The notes beneath the pieces were generated by a model. That model was not told the DNA's origin. It searched no databases and saw only the letters and a list, made by a program, of their open reading frames with translations. Both the position numbers and the translations under genes were made by a program. DNA of 40,428 nt from Coriobacteriia bacterium (GTDB lineage Bacteria; Actinomycetota; Coriobacteriia; WRKU01; JAENWW01), in NCBI GenBank assembly GCA_016649875.1, contig JAENWW010000012.1, forward strand, positions 1 through 40,428, in the 5' to 3' direction. Every line of letters starts with the position of its first letter. The first letter of the stretch is position 1. Positions 16,489 through 35,707 of the stretch are shown piece after piece.

Positions 16489-16929
16489 ATGATTTACACA
16501 GAAAAGGTTATGGATCACTTTAACAATCCGCGCAATGTCGGCGTCATAGAAGATGCCGACGGGGTAGGCGAAGTCGGGAACCCGACGTGCGGCGACATCA
16601 TGAAAATCACCATCAAAGTCGATGATGATGATACGCTTACCGATCTCAAGTTCCAAACCCTTGGGTGCGGAGCGGCGATAGCGACATCTTCCATGATCAC
16701 CGAACTCGCCAAAGGCATGAAAATTCAAGATGCGGTGAGGATTTCGAAACAAGAAGTCGCCGATGAGCTCGATGGTTTGCCGGCGCCGAAAATGCACTGT
16801 TCGGTGCTTGCCACCGACGGTCTGAAGGTGGCAATCGATGATTATCTCAAGAAACACGGGCGTGAGCCTCTCGCCGGTGAGATCAAGTCGGCCGACCCCA
16901 ACTTCGATCCGCATGCGGAAGAGGACTAA
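16489..16929 (+). CDS. iscU: Fe-S cluster assembly scaffold IscU/NifU N-terminal type
   Basis: The 146-residue scaffold receives sulfur from IscS and iron to assemble Fe-S clusters. Three conserved cysteines are visible, in NPTCGDIMK (C37), TLGCGAAIATSS (C62) and PKMHCSVLA (C104). The Asp following the first cysteine, which helps cluster release, is also present. Length fits IscU rather than full NifU. The acidic C-terminal tail is slightly longer than in E. coli IscU. The start is ATG 16489 with a weak site (GGGTAGG) created next to the tandem repeat. No hscA or hscB is seen. Confidence 0.93.
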   Translation: MIYTEKVMDHFNNPRNVGVIEDADGVGEVGNPTCGDIMKITIKVDDDDTLTDLKFQTLGCGAAIATSSMITELAKGMKIQDAVRISKQEVADELDGLPAPKMHCSVLATDGLKVAIDDYLKKHGREPLAGEIKSADPNFDPHAEED

Positions 16930-16934
16930 TTCCC

Positions 16935-17747
16935 GTGCGAAGATTAGCTGACTGTCACATGCATACCGAGCTTTGCGGGCATGCGGTGGGAACGCCCACC
17001 GACATGTTGCGTGCGGTTCAAAACGCCGGGCTGCTCGGTGCCGTCATGACCGAGCATCTTCCGTTGAAACCCGAACTCGATCCCGAAGGGATCTATGCGA
17101 TGCGCGGCGATGTGGACACTCTCTACGTCGCCGAGCTTCGTGATTTGCGATTCGACTGGGATGGTGCCGATCTCGTTATCGGCGCCGAAGCCGACTGGCT
17201 ATCGACGGATCTTGCGTGGACGGCCGAGTCGGTGAGGCAGGCTCGCGCTTGCGGGGTCGAAGTCGTGCTCGGCAGTGTGCATTTTCTCGATGGCTGGGCG
17301 TTTGACGATCCGAACTATCTTGAAGAGTGGGACAAGCGCGACGTCGATGCCGTGTGGGAAGATTATTTCACGCAGTGGTGTGCGGCAGCCTCCTCCGGTC
17401 TCTACGATGTGATGTCTCATCCCGATCTGGTGAAAAAGTTCGGGCATCGTGCAAGCAATGAAGATGATTTTTATGCGGAGGCGGCTCGCGTCGCCGGGCA
17501 ATCCGGCGTGTTGGTCGAGGTGTCGACGGCAGGGTGGAGAAAACCGGTGAAAGAGCAATATCCGTCCGTGGGATTCATTAAGCGCTTCATCGAAAACGGC
17601 GTGCATTTCACGCTCGGGTCCGATGCGCATGATCCCGCGGAAGTCGGCTATCGCCTGAATGACGCCGCCGATATTCTCGCCTCCTTAGGGGAGACGCGCA
17701 TAGCTTATCCACAACGTGAAGGGAATATCAGATGGCTGGATCTGTAG
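16935..17747 (+). CDS. PHP-domain histidinol-phosphatase-like protein
   Basis: A 270-residue metal-dependent phosphoesterase of the PHP superfamily. Metal-ligand motifs are all present: CHMHTELCGHA at the N-terminus, MTEHLPL near residue 37, GSVHFL near 113, SHPDLVKKFG near 160 and LGSDAHDP near 227. The best match in character is the HisK-type histidinol-phosphatase, the penultimate histidine step, which would complement hisC at 2.3 kb. Other PHP enzymes share these motifs, so the substrate is uncertain. The start is GTG 16935, five bases after iscU. The 3' end overlaps the next gene by 16 bases. Confidence 0.82.
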   Translation: MRRLADCHMHTELCGHAVGTPTDMLRAVQNAGLLGAVMTEHLPLKPELDPEGIYAMRGDVDTLYVAELRDLRFDWDGADLVIGAEADWLSTDLAWTAESVRQARACGVEVVLGSVHFLDGWAFDDPNYLEEWDKRDVDAVWEDYFTQWCAAASSGLYDVMSHPDLVKKFGHRASNEDDFYAEAARVAGQSGVLVEVSTAGWRKPVKEQYPSVGFIKRFIENGVHFTLGSDAHDPAEVGYRLNDAADILASLGETRIAYPQREGNIRWLDL

Positions 17748-18532
17748 TCACCGTCGCAGAAATCGCACAAGGAATAGAAAACGTCTATCCTTCGAGCGGG
17801 AGTGCTTCATGGGATAACGTCGGTTTGCTCGTCGGAGATCCTTCTCAGGCGGTCGAGGGAATAGTATTCGCACTCGATCCGACGCTTGAGGTACTCGAGT
17901 TCGCGACAGCAAAGGCGGCAAATGTCGTCGTCACCCATCATCCGGTGTTTCTCTCACCGTTGCAAAATGTGAATACCTCACAAAGCTATAACGCTCGCGT
18001 GGTTCACGAAGCCATCAAACGCGGCATCGCTCTCATAAACGCCCACACGAACCTCGACGTTGCCCGCGATGCGAAATATATCTTGGGGTCGAAACTGGGG
18101 TTATTGGACAGAGGAGATCTTGAAACATCGGAGCCTCCTTCGTATGCCGAGCTTTGGGAGGTTCCCACTCCGCGTTCGCTTGCCGAAGTGGCGCGCTCAT
18201 GCAGAGAAGTCTTCGGAGTCTTTCCGCGCGTGTGGGGAGAGGCGACGAAACAGGTGATCCGCATAGTCACTGCAACGGGTTCTGCTTCGTCGCGCGTCGA
18301 TGAAGCGCTCAGTGCTCACGCAGACCTTTTGATTGCGGGAGAAATCCACTATCATGAGTGTCTTGCCGCAAGGGAACAAGGCTTGGCCTGTATCGAACTC
18401 GGCCATGATGTCTCCGAGTGGCCTTTGGTTCCGCTTTTGAAAGAAGCGGTACTTTCCAACACGTTCATTTCGCCTACCAAGGTCTACGATATGCCCGCCG
18501 GTGCGCACTGGTGGGTTTCGATTGGAGAGTAA
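17732..18532 (+). CDS. NIF3-like dinuclear-metal protein
   Basis: A 266-residue member of the NIF3/YbgI family, annotated as GTP cyclohydrolase 1 type 2 homologues. The family forms hexameric toroids with a two-metal site. Ligand motifs visible are SWDNVGLLVG near residue 26, VVTHHPVF near 69, NAHTNLDVA near 103, and GEIHYHE plus LGHDVSEW in the C-terminal part (about 205-230). Its cellular role is not settled. It overlaps the PHP gene and is followed by the zinc-ribbon gene two bases after its stop, a neighbourhood also seen in other actinobacteria. Confidence 0.9.
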   Translation: MAGSVVTVAEIAQGIENVYPSSGSASWDNVGLLVGDPSQAVEGIVFALDPTLEVLEFATAKAANVVVTHHPVFLSPLQNVNTSQSYNARVVHEAIKRGIALINAHTNLDVARDAKYILGSKLGLLDRGDLETSEPPSYAELWEVPTPRSLAEVARSCREVFGVFPRVWGEATKQVIRIVTATGSASSRVDEALSAHADLLIAGEIHYHECLAAREQGLACIELGHDVSEWPLVPLLKEAVLSNTFISPTKVYDMPAGAHWWVSIGE

Positions 18533-18533
18533 T

Positions 18534-19256
18534 ATGCACACTGCACAACAGTCGGCGCTGCTCGATATACAAAAAATCGATGTCGAGGGCAGAACGATCA
18601 TGCGCTCGTTCAATCAACATCCGGCTCATGCCAAAATTCATGCAATCGAAAAAGCCATCGGTCAATTGGAAGTATCGCGCGTGAAGGCTGAGGAAAATGC
18701 GCACGATTTCGAACTGAAAATCACAGCGGGACAAGACGAAGTGCTTGCCGCGCAAGCTAAAATCGATGACGAGCGCAAACAGCTGGCGACTATCTTCGAG
18801 ACACGCAGCATACAAGCGCTTTCGAAAGACATCGAAGCTCAAATCCGCCGTATCGACAAGATAGAGTATGGCGAAATCGCTTATCTGGAACAGCAGGATG
18901 CGACGATGAAGCAAGAAAGCGAAATCGCCGAAAAGATAGAAAAACTTTTCACGGCGAGGGCGAAGCTCGAAGAAGGACTCGCCTCGCTGAAGTCACAAGT
19001 CGACGTAAAGGTCGAAGAGCTCAAGGCGGCCCGCGCGAAGGCAGAAAAGCATGTGCCCGCAGAAACGCTCGATCGCTACAAGGCGATTTCTCTCGAGAAA
19101 AGCGGCGTGGCGGTCGGTGAGTTGATCGATAATGCGTGTTCCATGTGCCGTGTGAAATTCTCTTACACACAAATCGACGATATGGCGGAACATGAGGGTG
19201 CGATTGTCGTGTGTCCGTCATGTAAACGACTTTTGGTGGTACCGAAGAATGACTGA
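18534..19256 (+). CDS. Coiled-coil protein with C-terminal C4 zinc ribbon
   Basis: A 240-residue protein. Residues 10-190 are almost entirely heptad-like, charged helical sequence forming a long coiled coil. The C-terminus has two CXXC pairs (CSMC near 203 and CPSC near 228) that form a C4 zinc ribbon. The family is widespread next to NIF3 genes and is structurally related to RNA- or nucleic-acid-binding hairpin proteins; its exact role is unknown. ATG 18534 is chosen because it follows the NIF3 stop directly. The end overlaps the RNase H gene start by 8 bases. Confidence 0.85.
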   Translation: MHTAQQSALLDIQKIDVEGRTIMRSFNQHPAHAKIHAIEKAIGQLEVSRVKAEENAHDFELKITAGQDEVLAAQAKIDDERKQLATIFETRSIQALSKDIEAQIRRIDKIEYGEIAYLEQQDATMKQESEIAEKIEKLFTARAKLEEGLASLKSQVDVKVEELKAARAKAEKHVPAETLDRYKAISLEKSGVAVGELIDNACSMCRVKFSYTQIDDMAEHEGAIVVCPSCKRLLVVPKND

Positions 19257-20163
19257 TGCAATAAAAGCAACTTTGCATACCGATGGAGGTTCGCGGGGCA
19301 ACCCCGGCCCGGCCGGTATCGGTATCCATCTCGAGTTATCGACGGGAGAGGTATACTCCGCCGGTGCATTCATAGGAGTCGCTACCAATAACGTCGCCGA
19401 GTATCGAGCGATTATCTGGGGACTCGAAAATGCGCTCGCGGCACATGTCGCTTCGCTTCAGGTTATCGCCGACAGCGAGTTGGTCATCAAGCAATTGCGC
19501 GGAGAGTATAAAGTAAAAAAGAAGGAGCTCCAGACACTTTGCGCCGACGCCTCGAAATTGTTGGTGCGTTTCGAGGATGTCTCTCTCGAAAACGTGCCAC
19601 GTGCGCAAAATAAAGATGCAGATGAGCGTGCCAACGAGGCCATGGATGCCAAGGGCTCCGTCGGCAACTTCATTCTCGATTACGGTTTCACCTCCGGCGC
19701 CGAGCAATTGAGTCTCGCTCTCGAGCCTACGGTCGCACACGAAAAAGATTCTGATTCCGCAGTAGAACAGGAACGAACGACGATGTCTGGAATATATACT
19801 CTGACTGTTAAAGACCACTTCGATGCCGCCCATAATCTTTACGGGTATCCCGGTGAATGCAGAAATCTTCATGGGCACACGTGGGATGTCGAGGTAAGCG
19901 TCGCGTCTCCTCATCTCGACGGTATCGGTATCGTCTATGATTTCAAGAATTTGAAAGATGATTTGAAAAGCATACTGTCTACTTACGACCATACGTACAT
20001 CAATGAGAATGAGCCTTTCGATACCATGAGCCCGACGGCGGAAAATCTCGCGCGGGTGATTTGTCTGCGCTTGCAAGAGATGATTACTGCGGATGTCGTG
20101 GTCAAAGAAGTCGCGGTCTGGGAGTCTCCGATAGCACGTGTCGGATACAGCCCCACCGATTAA
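19249..20163 (+). CDS. RNase HI - QueD fusion protein
   Basis: One uninterrupted frame of 304 residues encodes two enzymes. Residues 1-145 are RNase HI, with the catalytic acids in HTDGGSRGNPGP (D12), NNVAEYRAI (E51), IADSELVIKQL (D75) and NKDADERANEA (D125). Residues 179-304 are a 6-carboxytetrahydropterin/6-pyruvoyltetrahydropterin synthase, the second step of queuosine synthesis. They show zinc histidines in DAAHNL and NLHGHTW, the catalytic cysteine in ECRNLHGH, DHTYIN and PTAENLA. An acidic linker separates the domains. An internal ATG at 19783 with AGGA ten bases upstream could also give free QueD. Actinobacterial homologues of this locus fuse RNase HI to a CobC-type phosphatase (Mycobacterium Rv2228c), so the partner here is unusual. 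No other que genes are present. Confidence 0.88.
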   Translation: MTDAIKATLHTDGGSRGNPGPAGIGIHLELSTGEVYSAGAFIGVATNNVAEYRAIIWGLENALAAHVASLQVIADSELVIKQLRGEYKVKKKELQTLCADASKLLVRFEDVSLENVPRAQNKDADERANEAMDAKGSVGNFILDYGFTSGAEQLSLALEPTVAHEKDSDSAVEQERTTMSGIYTLTVKDHFDAAHNLYGYPGECRNLHGHTWDVEVSVASPHLDGIGIVYDFKNLKDDLKSILSTYDHTYINENEPFDTMSPTAENLARVICLRLQEMITADVVVKEVAVWESPIARVGYSPTD

Positions 20164-20176
20164 GAAGGGGAGCGCC

Positions 20177-20617
20177 ATGTATACGCCGAATGTCGAGGAG
20201 TACCTGGAGGCGATTTTGCGTCTTTCTTGCGTGGACACCTGTGTCGATACGGCGCAGTGTCAGGGTATCGGCACGATGGTTCCCTCGATGCAACGTGGCG
20301 AATGCATTGTCGCACATCCTTCCGACATCGCTGAGATGGTGGGAGTCACACGCCCATCGGTGAGCACGGCATTGGCTCGAATGGGGGCCGACTGGCTTGT
20401 CACCCGACAGGGAAAAGGCGTGATACTCACGCCGAAAGGATTCGATTACGCACGCGAAATCTTGCGTCGCCATCGTGTCGCCGAGCGTTTTCTCGTCGAA
20501 GTCCTCGGATTCGAGAGAGGCACGGTTCATGAGGAAGCATGCGTTCTCGAGCATGCGCTCTCGAATCGTATCGTCGCCGGCCTTCAACGTTTAGTCGATG
20601 ACGCTGAAAAACTCTAG
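20177..20617 (+). CDS. DtxR/IdeR-family regulator with a Cys-rich insertion
   Basis: A 146-residue metal-dependent repressor. It begins like the family (NVEEYLEAILRL). The helix-turn-helix spans about residues 48-75 (DIAEMVGVTRPSVSTALARM) and the dimerization/metal domain is HEEACVLEHALS, where C122, E125 and H126 match the DtxR/IdeR iron-site triad rather than the MntR set. The SH3 domain of full DtxR is absent. Between the first helix and the helix-turn-helix lies an insertion of about 25 residues with four cysteines (C18, C22, C28, C43), which could bind zinc or an Fe-S cluster. ATG 20177 follows AAGGGGAG. It ends the isc-unit run. Target genes are not apparent. Confidence 0.85.
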   Translation: MYTPNVEEYLEAILRLSCVDTCVDTAQCQGIGTMVPSMQRGECIVAHPSDIAEMVGVTRPSVSTALARMGADWLVTRQGKGVILTPKGFDYAREILRRHRVAERFLVEVLGFERGTVHEEACVLEHALSNRIVAGLQRLVDDAEKL

Positions 20618-32149: not shown

Positions 32150-33175
32150 ATGACTTTTTCCAAACCGAAATATAAAAGAAACGAAGTCAGGAGATGCGGG
32201 AAAATTCTTGCAAGTGAAAATGGGCTCGATAATAAATATGCATTAGATGTCGCAGACAACTGGCGCTCTTCGCATCTTCAACCCGTAAAAACTTTTCTTC
32301 AAATGCTCCAACGTGAATCTTTGAAAATTACCGACGACTCAACATCGGTGTTCAGGCTCAAGAGATTGCCCTCAATTGTTGATAAGCTTGGTCGACTAAA
32401 GAGTCATGACCTGGCTTCTATGCAAGATATTGGTGGATGTCGGACGGTACTAGATAAGGTCTCTGACTTATATCGTTTGCGCAATGCCATTCGGAAATCT
32501 GAAATGAAGCACAAGTTTATTCGTGAATACGATTACATTATTACTCCAAAACCATCTGGATATCGAGGTATCCACTTGATCTATAAGTACTACAGCGATA
32601 AAAACGATTACTACAATGGATTGAATGTGGAGATTCAGATTCGTACTAAACGCCAGCATGCATGGGCCACATGTGTTGAGGTAGCTGGCGATTATTTGAG
32701 TCATTCTTTTAAGTCAAGCCAGGGGCCGGAGGAGTGGCTAAACTTTTTTAAATTGGCAAGTTCCGCCATAGCTATTCTTGAGAAATCGCCAACGGTGGTC
32801 GGTACGCCAAATTCCAAACAAGCCCTAAAACAAGAATTGCGAACTAGTTATGAAGAACTAAAGGTTAAGGAAACTCTTCGGCGGATAAAACGTTCGCACT
32901 CGGAAATTAACAAGATGAATGTTAAAGCGAAAAACAAATACTTTTTGGTTGATTTTAATGAACAAACTAAAAACGTCTCAATTACGTCTTATAGGGAGAA
33001 GGATATAGAATCACTAACCAAGGACTATTTAAGAAAAGAAGAGGAGTACAAATATACCTTGCACAATGTCGTGGTGGTATCGGGAAACTCAATTGAGTCT
33101 CTGCGGTATGCATATGGTAACTATTTTGCGGATGTTGATACATTTCTGAGAATGATGGACAGATTCATAAAATAG
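32150..33175 (+). CDS. RelA/SpoT-domain protein (stand-alone nucleotide pyrophosphokinase-like)
   Basis: 341 residues. The synthetase-type nucleotidyltransferase domain spans about 40-190, with MQDIGGCRTVL (D93, R98), YDYIITPKPSGYRGIHLIY and the catalytic VEIQIRTKRQHAWATCVE. No HD hydrolase, TGS or ACT domain is present, so it is neither housekeeping Rel nor RelQ/RelP. The C-terminal 130 residues (YFLVDF..., then a tail ending SLRYAYGNYFADVDTF) belong to a subgroup often met in defense islands. Relatives in the toxic small alarmone synthetase groups make (p)ppApp or pyrophosphorylate tRNA during phage defense. Which activity applies here cannot be told. AT-rich codons and flanking tRNA-end repeats mark it as acquired. 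Confidence 0.85.
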   Translation: MTFSKPKYKRNEVRRCGKILASENGLDNKYALDVADNWRSSHLQPVKTFLQMLQRESLKITDDSTSVFRLKRLPSIVDKLGRLKSHDLASMQDIGGCRTVLDKVSDLYRLRNAIRKSEMKHKFIREYDYIITPKPSGYRGIHLIYKYYSDKNDYYNGLNVEIQIRTKRQHAWATCVEVAGDYLSHSFKSSQGPEEWLNFFKLASSAIAILEKSPTVVGTPNSKQALKQELRTSYEELKVKETLRRIKRSHSEINKMNVKAKNKYFLVDFNEQTKNVSITSYREKDIESLTKDYLRKEEEYKYTLHNVVVVSGNSIESLRYAYGNYFADVDTFLRMMDRFIK

Positions 33176-33913: not shown

Positions 33914-35707
33914 ATGGACACGAAAATTAGAGACCAAATTCTTGAGGACATTAGAGCAATTCAAGGCGATTATTTGAGTTCAATACCTAACTTGAAATCA
34001 GATGATTATGCGTTTAACTTTTGGGTTCTTACAAAGTTGTACTGTATAGATGAGGAAATCGCGATCTCCTATATCACAGACAACTCAGATCGAGGAATTG
34101 ATTGTTGGGTGTATTTTGAAGAAGCAAAAGAACTTTATTTAATCCAAAATAAATTTTATACTACCGCAGCTCTCTCAAGGGGAGCGGTTATTGATGAATT
34201 TTTATCAAGACCACTTGAGCATTTAAGACTTGGCTCCTATACAAGATCAAAGGATCTACAAGATATCTTCACAAAATTTATGGTCGATACAGAATTTAAA
34301 ATTCATTTAGTGGTGTATACAACTCAAGACAAGGAAGATACCGCGCTCAAAAATGAAATAGATACTTGGTCGTATGATCAAGAGGGCATAAAAGCATACA
34401 TTGACGCTAAGATGTACCAATTGGATGACATCAAAGAAACGTATTACGGAGAGCAGTATTCTGATGTCATAAATTTTGAATGCGAAATAGCAACCACCAA
34501 TCAAGGTACTTTGCTTAATATTGATCCGGAGCATTACTCGCTTCCGAACCTTATTAAGGCAAGATACATCTTGACTTCAGTTACAAATTTATTTGAGATT
34601 GTTAAAAAAGCTGAAAAGAAAAATTATCAATTGTTTGAAGAAAATATTCGAGAATATCTTGGCAACAAAGGTGTAAACAATAAAATCATTGCAACACTAA
34701 GGGATCCCAAAGAGAGAGGTAATTTCTTTTTCTACAATAATGGAATTACTATAATTTGCGAAAGTTTTGTAAATGGTAAAAACAAGGCTGCCACAAAAAT
34801 ATTTAATCCTCAAATTGTTAATGGGTGTCAGACGGTAAATTCGATTTTCGATGTGATTAGCAAGGTTCCTGCTGGGGAAATGTCGGACTTTGATAATACT
34901 TATGTGATGGTAAAAGTGCTGCAAGTTGATAAAGAAAATAATAAATCGCTATATTTGGATATTGTTCTATATAACAACAGCCAGAACGCCATCAAAGAAA
35001 AGGACTTTGCTGCAAATCATAAGGTATTCAACAGTTTAAAGAACCATATGGAAGATCGCGGTTTTGCGTTGTATGTAAAACAGAGTGATGAGTATAAATA
35101 CAAAAATAATAAGGCGCTTCAGGCGCAAATGAGAAAACCAGCTGCAAATTATTTTGAATACATTGGGCTAGAAGATTTTAATACTGCCCAAATGGGCATA
35201 AGATTGGAAAAATTATTGCAGGTTCTCATGGCGTTTCAGTTTGGTGGATATGAAGCATTTACAAAAAAGAATACACTTTTGAAAAGAGATTCAAAATATT
35301 ATAACGAGCTTTTGGAAATGATTAGCAACGTAGATTATAGCGTTGATCAAATAATTAAACTCTATTTGTTGTTCCTGTATGCAGAATTACAAAAAAAGGG
35401 AAGTGAAGACAACAGAACCCCTATTCCTTATTATGTCTTGGATTTTATCGGCAAAGATTATCGAGATTCTGCGAATCAATATCTTTTGTTTGAAAAGGAT
35501 TCAGCTATGGTGATTTATAATTTTTATAAGTCAGTTGCCAACCAGTACAGAAGACAGATTGAAAATTCAGGGACAGACTACAACAAAATGATTAAGCAGC
35601 CGATAAGGGAAGACGTTTTGAACGGTGCGATATTGGGAAAACTAGATGATCTGGAATCTGAACAGCGTGGCATAATAAAAAGATTCAGGACAACAGTTTT
35701 CGAATAG
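33914..35707 (+). CDS. AIPR-family abortive phage infection protein
   Basis: 597 residues. The N-terminal domain carries a restriction-endonuclease-like motif set, SDRGIDCWVYF (D63) followed 15 residues later by LIQNKF (Q78, K80), as in PD-(D/E)XK nucleases. The AIPR core lies around residues 270-400 with FFFYNNGITII, NPQIVNGCQTVNSIF and YNNSQNAIKEKDF. AIPR proteins occur alone or with restriction-modification genes and block phage growth; the mechanism is mostly unknown. It is AT-rich with its own terminator 30 bases downstream, so it is a solitary transcription unit. It lies just outside the tRNA-end repeat pair. Confidence 0.9.
   Translation: MDTKIRDQILEDIRAIQGDYLSSIPNLKSDDYAFNFWVLTKLYCIDEEIAISYITDNSDRGIDCWVYFEEAKELYLIQNKFYTTAALSRGAVIDEFLSRPLEHLRLGSYTRSKDLQDIFTKFMVDTEFKIHLVVYTTQDKEDTALKNEIDTWSYDQEGIKAYIDAKMYQLDDIKETYYGEQYSDVINFECEIATTNQGTLLNIDPEHYSLPNLIKARYILTSVTNLFEIVKKAEKKNYQLFEENIREYLGNKGVNNKIIATLRDPKERGNFFFYNNGITIICESFVNGKNKAATKIFNPQIVNGCQTVNSIFDVISKVPAGEMSDFDNTYVMVKVLQVDKENNKSLYLDIVLYNNSQNAIKEKDFAANHKVFNSLKNHMEDRGFALYVKQSDEYKYKNNKALQAQMRKPAANYFEYIGLEDFNTAQMGIRLEKLLQVLMAFQFGGYEAFTKKNTLLKRDSKYYNELLEMISNVDYSVDQIIKLYLLFLYAELQKKGSEDNRTPIPYYVLDFIGKDYRDSANQYLLFEKDSAMVIYNFYKSVANQYRRQIENSGTDYNKMIKQPIREDVLNGAILGKLDDLESEQRGIIKRFRTTVFE

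Follow-up and report, generated by a model that had tools for sequence, protein, structure and literature searches.

Why should a nuclease for RNA:DNA hybrids and an enzyme of pterin metabolism share one polypeptide chain, and which tasks could such a chain carry out? The question is raised by a single open frame at positions 19249-20163 (+, 304 amino acids; open reading frame list and translation) of a 40,428-nucleotide stretch of DNA from a Coriobacteriia bacterium, termed the window. The gene order in the window is NIF3 - zinc ribbon - RNase HI/pterin synthase fusion, and the following features are considered:

17732-18532, +: DUF34/NIF3 protein (PF01784, 6.4e-54), the conserved upstream neighbour
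18501-19256, +: coiled-coil zinc-ribbon protein, CT398/CdsZ-like (PF24481, 1.3e-10), overlapping the start of the fusion by 8 nt
19249-19650, +: RNase HI domain of the RVT_3 type, residues 1-134 (PF13456, 8e-22), with D12/E51/D75/D125
19669-19782, +: acidic linker, residues 141-178, the former C-terminal tail of RNase HI plus an extension
19705-19722, +: QLSLAL, residues 153-158, a putative clamp-binding-like motif at the site corresponding to the (Q)xxLF tail
19769-19772, +: AGGA, a weak ribosome site, followed at a spacing of 10 nt by the internal ATG (19783)
19783-20163, +: COG0720 pterin synthase domain, annotated QueD, residues 179-304, with CRNLHGH (PF01242, 6.2e-36)

The N-terminal domain combines an RNase H fold with all four catalytic acids of RVT_3-type RNase HI (D12, E51, D75, D125). 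The C-terminal domain displays the T-fold, three zinc histidines and catalytic triad of the COG0720/PTPS fold, with zinc His 195/208/210, Cys204, D247/H248 and E292 in place. Pfam profiles match residues 11-131 (RVT_3, 8e-22) and 185-300 (PTPS, 6e-36), and the pterin synthase domain exceeds the cut-off of TIGR03367 (96.6 versus 89.25 bits). In the predicted structure both domains are confident (mean pLDDT 89); the best Foldseek match for the RNase HI part is the RNase HI domain of Rv2228c (3hst), and the C-terminal half matches PTPS/QueD structures. Residues and profile matches thus bear out the original prediction of an in-frame fusion with two complete active sites, from which we infer catalytic activity of both domains. 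In profile searches of the own genome (98.2% complete), the fused domains are the only matches to PF00075 and PF01242. The reading which we hold to be somewhat better than even is a bifunctional chain with two separate housekeeping jobs, comprising the sole RNase HI and the sole COG0720 enzyme, the latter filling the FolB step.

The history of the locus can be followed in relatives, as the RNase HI and pterin synthase genes adjoin or are fused throughout the class Coriobacteriia. The comparison covered 56 distinct Coriobacteriia loci that have the two genes, with a fusion at 29 and separate, adjacent genes at 27. On the tree the two states change eight times (7-8 across bootstrap replicates, with at least 7 required by well supported branches), versus 19 changes expected from shuffled labels; gain and loss of the fusion are not distinguishable in these counts. 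Fusion and fission are recurrent, yet non-random, in Coriobacteriia. In two genera fused and separate forms are found side by side, the genes of the separate pairs sharing a frame that one or two stops interrupt, and several separate pairs are just one in-frame stop from being fused. The fusion in the window occupies a long, lone branch and could not be placed as an independent event. Relatives with two genes at the same site, named beforehand as a case against the fusion, do occur; instead of refuting it, they show how it arose. The other such case, a sequencing error hiding a stop, is excluded because many independent assemblies share the fusion. In the proposed scenario, an in-frame stop between RNase HI and pterin synthase would have been lost from an ancestral tight gene row (NIF3 - zinc ribbon - RNase HI - pterin synthase), and this step would have been repeated or reversed within Coriobacteriia. 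The locus represents a case of gene fusion via stop loss, many times at one site. Literature searches found no paper on an RNase H-COG0720 (QueD) fusion.

A start codon with a ribosome site is found in nearly all synthase genes that stand alone. This site has been lost in 20 of the 29 fused loci, and since it is rare near the junction, a single chain is likely the product in most fused species. The window is among the nine fused loci that kept a start codon and a ribosome site near the junction, and additional free synthase is possibly made from the ATG at 19783. The internal start put forward in the original prediction therefore exists in the window, where its AGGA is weak, but it is not a general feature of the fused loci. 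The same nine loci bear on a possible, though less probable, account, according to which co-transcribed genes fused without any function of the fusion, and free synthase is still made from an internal start. The ATG and AGGA retained in the window, the recurrence of fusion and fission and a parallel RNase HI-CobC fusion, whose parts were judged separable and whose fixation was ascribed to drift (PMC7466739), are in line with this account; the fused chain as the only product wherever the ribosome site is gone speaks against it. It agrees with the bifunctional chain on the roles of both enzymes, and internal initiation is the sole difference.

The linker between the domains is mildly acidic, as had been noted beforehand (8 D/E and 2 K/R in 39 residues), and residues 149-177 are predicted to be disordered (pLDDT < 50). 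The linker could be aligned with the C-termini of separately encoded RNase HI proteins, and judged by this alignment it is the old RNase HI tail. Separate RNase HI proteins carry a short tail ending in LF, often as QxxLF (DQGTLF, EQPSLF). LF occurred in 25/26 tails of separate copies (shuffle mean 2.2) and in 22/29 of fused ones (shuffle mean 3.2), with a shuffle maximum of 9, and QxxLF in 13/26 and 6/29, respectively (shuffle mean 0.1); these shuffle tests ignore the relatedness of the sequences. In fused proteins the spacing from the RNase core is unchanged, which places the motif inside the linker (QLNLF, QPSLF, QRSLF). Several fused copies have a degenerate form of it, and in the window it reads QLSLAL, not QxxLF. 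These motifs resemble the bacterial sliding-clamp binding motifs of the QL(S/D)LF type, and the translation of the window's own DinB carries QLSLDDF. Binding to the DNA sliding clamp is the presumed role of the conserved (Q)xxLF motif, and a clamp-type tail is proposed as the route by which RNase HI would reach the fork. A clamp-tethered RNase HI was not found in the literature examined.

Which pathway does the pterin synthase domain serve? Profile searches of the own genome detected FolE, HPPK (folK) and Tgt. FolB had no match in this genome, and QueC had none either here or in relatives carrying the gene; a convincing QueE is absent from the own genome, where weak radical-SAM matches reach at most 38 bits versus 253 for the genuine QueE of G021, though a divergent QueE may be among them. 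On contig C7 of the own genome, folE is followed by DHPS-HPPK in one frame and then by panB and panC, and folB is missing (gene names besides folE and HPPK were read by eye from translations). Of the 39 nearest genomes, 34 have PTPS without FolB, and four have FolB without any PTPS match; all four FolB-positive genomes belong to one family (f7), and the anticorrelation therefore amounts to few events. One genome (G001) has neither protein; its contig ends exactly after the zinc-ribbon gene, where the locus would follow, and it was therefore rejected as a counterexample. Relatives gave QueC-like matches 3-4 kb upstream, which were likewise discarded as weak PP-loop matches limited to the first 60-120 positions; in G001 the gene at this place encodes an MnmA-like protein.

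According to published signatures, ExxHGH denotes the folate-type PTPS-III, CxxxHGH denotes QueD and CExxHGH denotes hybrids (PMC5041015). The PTPS of this locus reads CxxxHGH and lacks the Glu, its position being held by R, A, S, K, Q or C. In the window the QueD (PTPS-I) signature is present as CRNLHGH, but the QueE and QueC partners are missing from the genome; conversely, the ExxHGH of PTPS-III is missing, but FolB is absent and the rest of the folate pathway is present. As a replacement for the PTPS-III Glu, another Glu of the motif was considered, either preceding the Cys or at Cys+2, and was dismissed because it is not conserved. Other Coriobacteriia PTPS carry CENLHGH, and QueC/QueE, where present, adjoin such a hybrid PTPS.

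The domain could nonetheless be a true QueD that produces 6-carboxytetrahydropterin for queuosine with unrecognised replacements of QueE and QueC, Tgt inserting the product in tRNA. CxxxHGH without the PTPS-III Glu, the TIGR03367 score and the presence of Tgt in nearly all genomes searched fit this possibility. We consider it unlikely, given the missing QueC and the merely weak QueE matches, the relatives that keep QueC/QueE beside a different, CENLHGH PTPS and a FolB step that would be left empty. Moreover, preQ1 salvage can supply Tgt, and the enzyme could run on salvaged preQ1. The reading "QueD for queuosine" is probably wrong; the domain, earlier taken for QueD, is a QueD solely by its CxxxHGH motif, and the proposed look for queC and queE elsewhere in the genome returned no QueC and no convincing QueE. 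Because the genome has folE, folP and folK but neither QueC, a convincing QueE nor FolB, folate synthesis is a likelier role than tRNA modification, and the domain most likely fills the FolB step in it. On this assignment, the annotation as queuosine QueD is likely mistaken in this class of actinobacteria from gut and sediment, and the protein is probably a folate enzyme instead. The assignment predicts a FolB replacement without the published folate-type signature, and if the folate role is true, the published PTPS signature rule is incomplete.

Natural experiments in relatives bear on the question of whether the two domains depend on each other. In six genomes with an intact fusion (G000, G003, G005, G066, G093, G105), PF00075 matches nothing besides the fused domain; G073 likewise has a fusion, but no PF00075 match reached the threshold there. 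Gordonibacter-type loci (L064, L065, L067, L063) read NIF3 - zinc ribbon - synthase and have lost RNase H, and their synthase bears a linker remnant, YEGPGKLSG, common to fused relatives. Both active sites of the fusion are destroyed in three further genomes (L096/L100 in G039, L101 in G059, L102 in G083), where the first or second acid and the fourth acid of RNase HI are replaced, and HGH and the first zinc His are lost from PTPS. Genomes with a dead or lost RNase H encode a canonical RNase HI elsewhere (120-167 bits), including G094, G089 and G086, in which RNase H is lost from the locus. In the three genomes with dead fusions, a CENLHGH PTPS lies directly beside this canonical RNase HI, 3-6 nt apart in the two cases measured. 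These second PTPS-RNase HI pairs (L134, L135, L136) are unrelated to the fusion. Since a canonical RNase HI or a second PTPS is present where the fused domain is dead or lost, the domains appear to do separate jobs; this suggests that each has a job of its own, from which it is released when replaced elsewhere.

The doubly inactive yet conserved fusion is an unexpected puzzle. It is 49% identical between two genera and keeps the QxxLF tail (QVSLF / QDTLF). In the one pair for which purifying selection was estimated (G039/G059), dN/dS is 0.087 at dS 0.52 (0.06-0.08 for the domains, 0.04-0.12 for canonical genes), and a decaying pseudogene is rejected for this pair. A function of the pairing itself would offer an explanation: the hexameric synthase fold might scaffold RNase HI, or clamp-bound RNase HI might localise the pterin enzyme. 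Adjacency or fusion maintained across the class, purifying selection on the dead fusion with an intact tail and replacing enzymes that are once more encoded by PTPS and RNase HI genes only a few bases from each other agree with such a function, but the Gordonibacter-type genomes lost RNase H and kept the synthase, which indicates that the pairing is dispensable. Overall, we regard a pairing function of this kind as improbable. Slightly less probable still, and outlined here as a speculation, is a clamp-tethered RNase HI - pterin synthase whose pairing matters beyond catalysis, such that the doubly inactive pseudoenzyme of G039, G059 and G083 is kept although both reactions have passed to other genes; if this were true, the pairing could link folate or pterin status to RNA removal at the replication fork.

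For the bifunctional chain that we favour, the division of labour would be simple. The N-terminal domain would remove RNA from RNA:DNA hybrids as the sole RNase HI detected, the C-terminal domain would convert dihydroneopterin triphosphate to 6-hydroxymethyl-dihydropterin in place of the missing FolB, and the old RNase HI tail in the linker would bind via (Q)xxLF to the sliding clamp.

Further observations concern the surroundings of the fusion and the own genome. A DtxR/MntR-type regulator (20177-20617, +), compared by eye with its L008 homolog, has no C-terminal SH3-like part, and its N-terminal HTH region includes an extra, Cys-containing segment of about 25 residues. At 16489-16935 NifU is directly followed by a PHP gene, and in G001 an MnmA-like gene lies just before the PHP-domain gene; with the QueC model, no PP-loop match in the own genome reached the threshold. 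An AIPR (abortive-infection type) protein is encoded at 33914-35707 (+), near a RelA/SpoT-domain gene at 32150-33175. Elsewhere in the genome, L084:3667-5385 is a single open frame of DHPS and HPPK directly after folE, with panB and panC following. A literature search for a DUF34-QueD linkage found nothing relevant. The actinobacterial Rv2228c locus presumably has a comparable NIF3/zinc-ribbon neighbourhood.

Among known systems, QueD/PTPS-I (E. coli QueD, PDB 4ntk) shares the fold, CxxxHGH and the zinc histidines with the C-terminal domain, which differs by the missing QueC, the lack of a convincing QueE and the lack of linkage to queuosine genes. PTPS-III and PTPS-I/III hybrids (PMC5041015) by inference fill the same gap, with folE/folP/folK present and FolB missing, whereas the window domain is without the Glu of ExxHGH / CExxHGH. 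In E. coli, RNase HI is brought to the fork by the SSB C-terminus (PMC11253446); the two share the notion of RNase HI being kept at the replication fork, but the candidate tether here would be a C-terminal (Q)xxLF clamp-type motif. The closest RNase HI by sequence and fold is that of Rv2228c / MSMEG_4305 (PRK07238, PMC7466739), in keeping with the parallel drawn in the original prediction, as Rv2228c is also the closest solved structure. Both types consist of an N-terminal RNase HI, a variable linker and a C-terminal metabolic enzyme; the partner there is a CobC-type phosphatase, and here it is a COG0720 pterin synthase. Accordingly, the PRK07238 match (7e-39) covers positions 5-140 of 378, the RNase part only, and the window protein has no C-terminal histidine phosphatase domain. 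CobC fusion homologs have been reported only in Actinomycetales (PMC7466739). Compared with the known Rv2228c-type fusions, the RNase HI-pterin synthase protein is a related RNase HI with a different partner.
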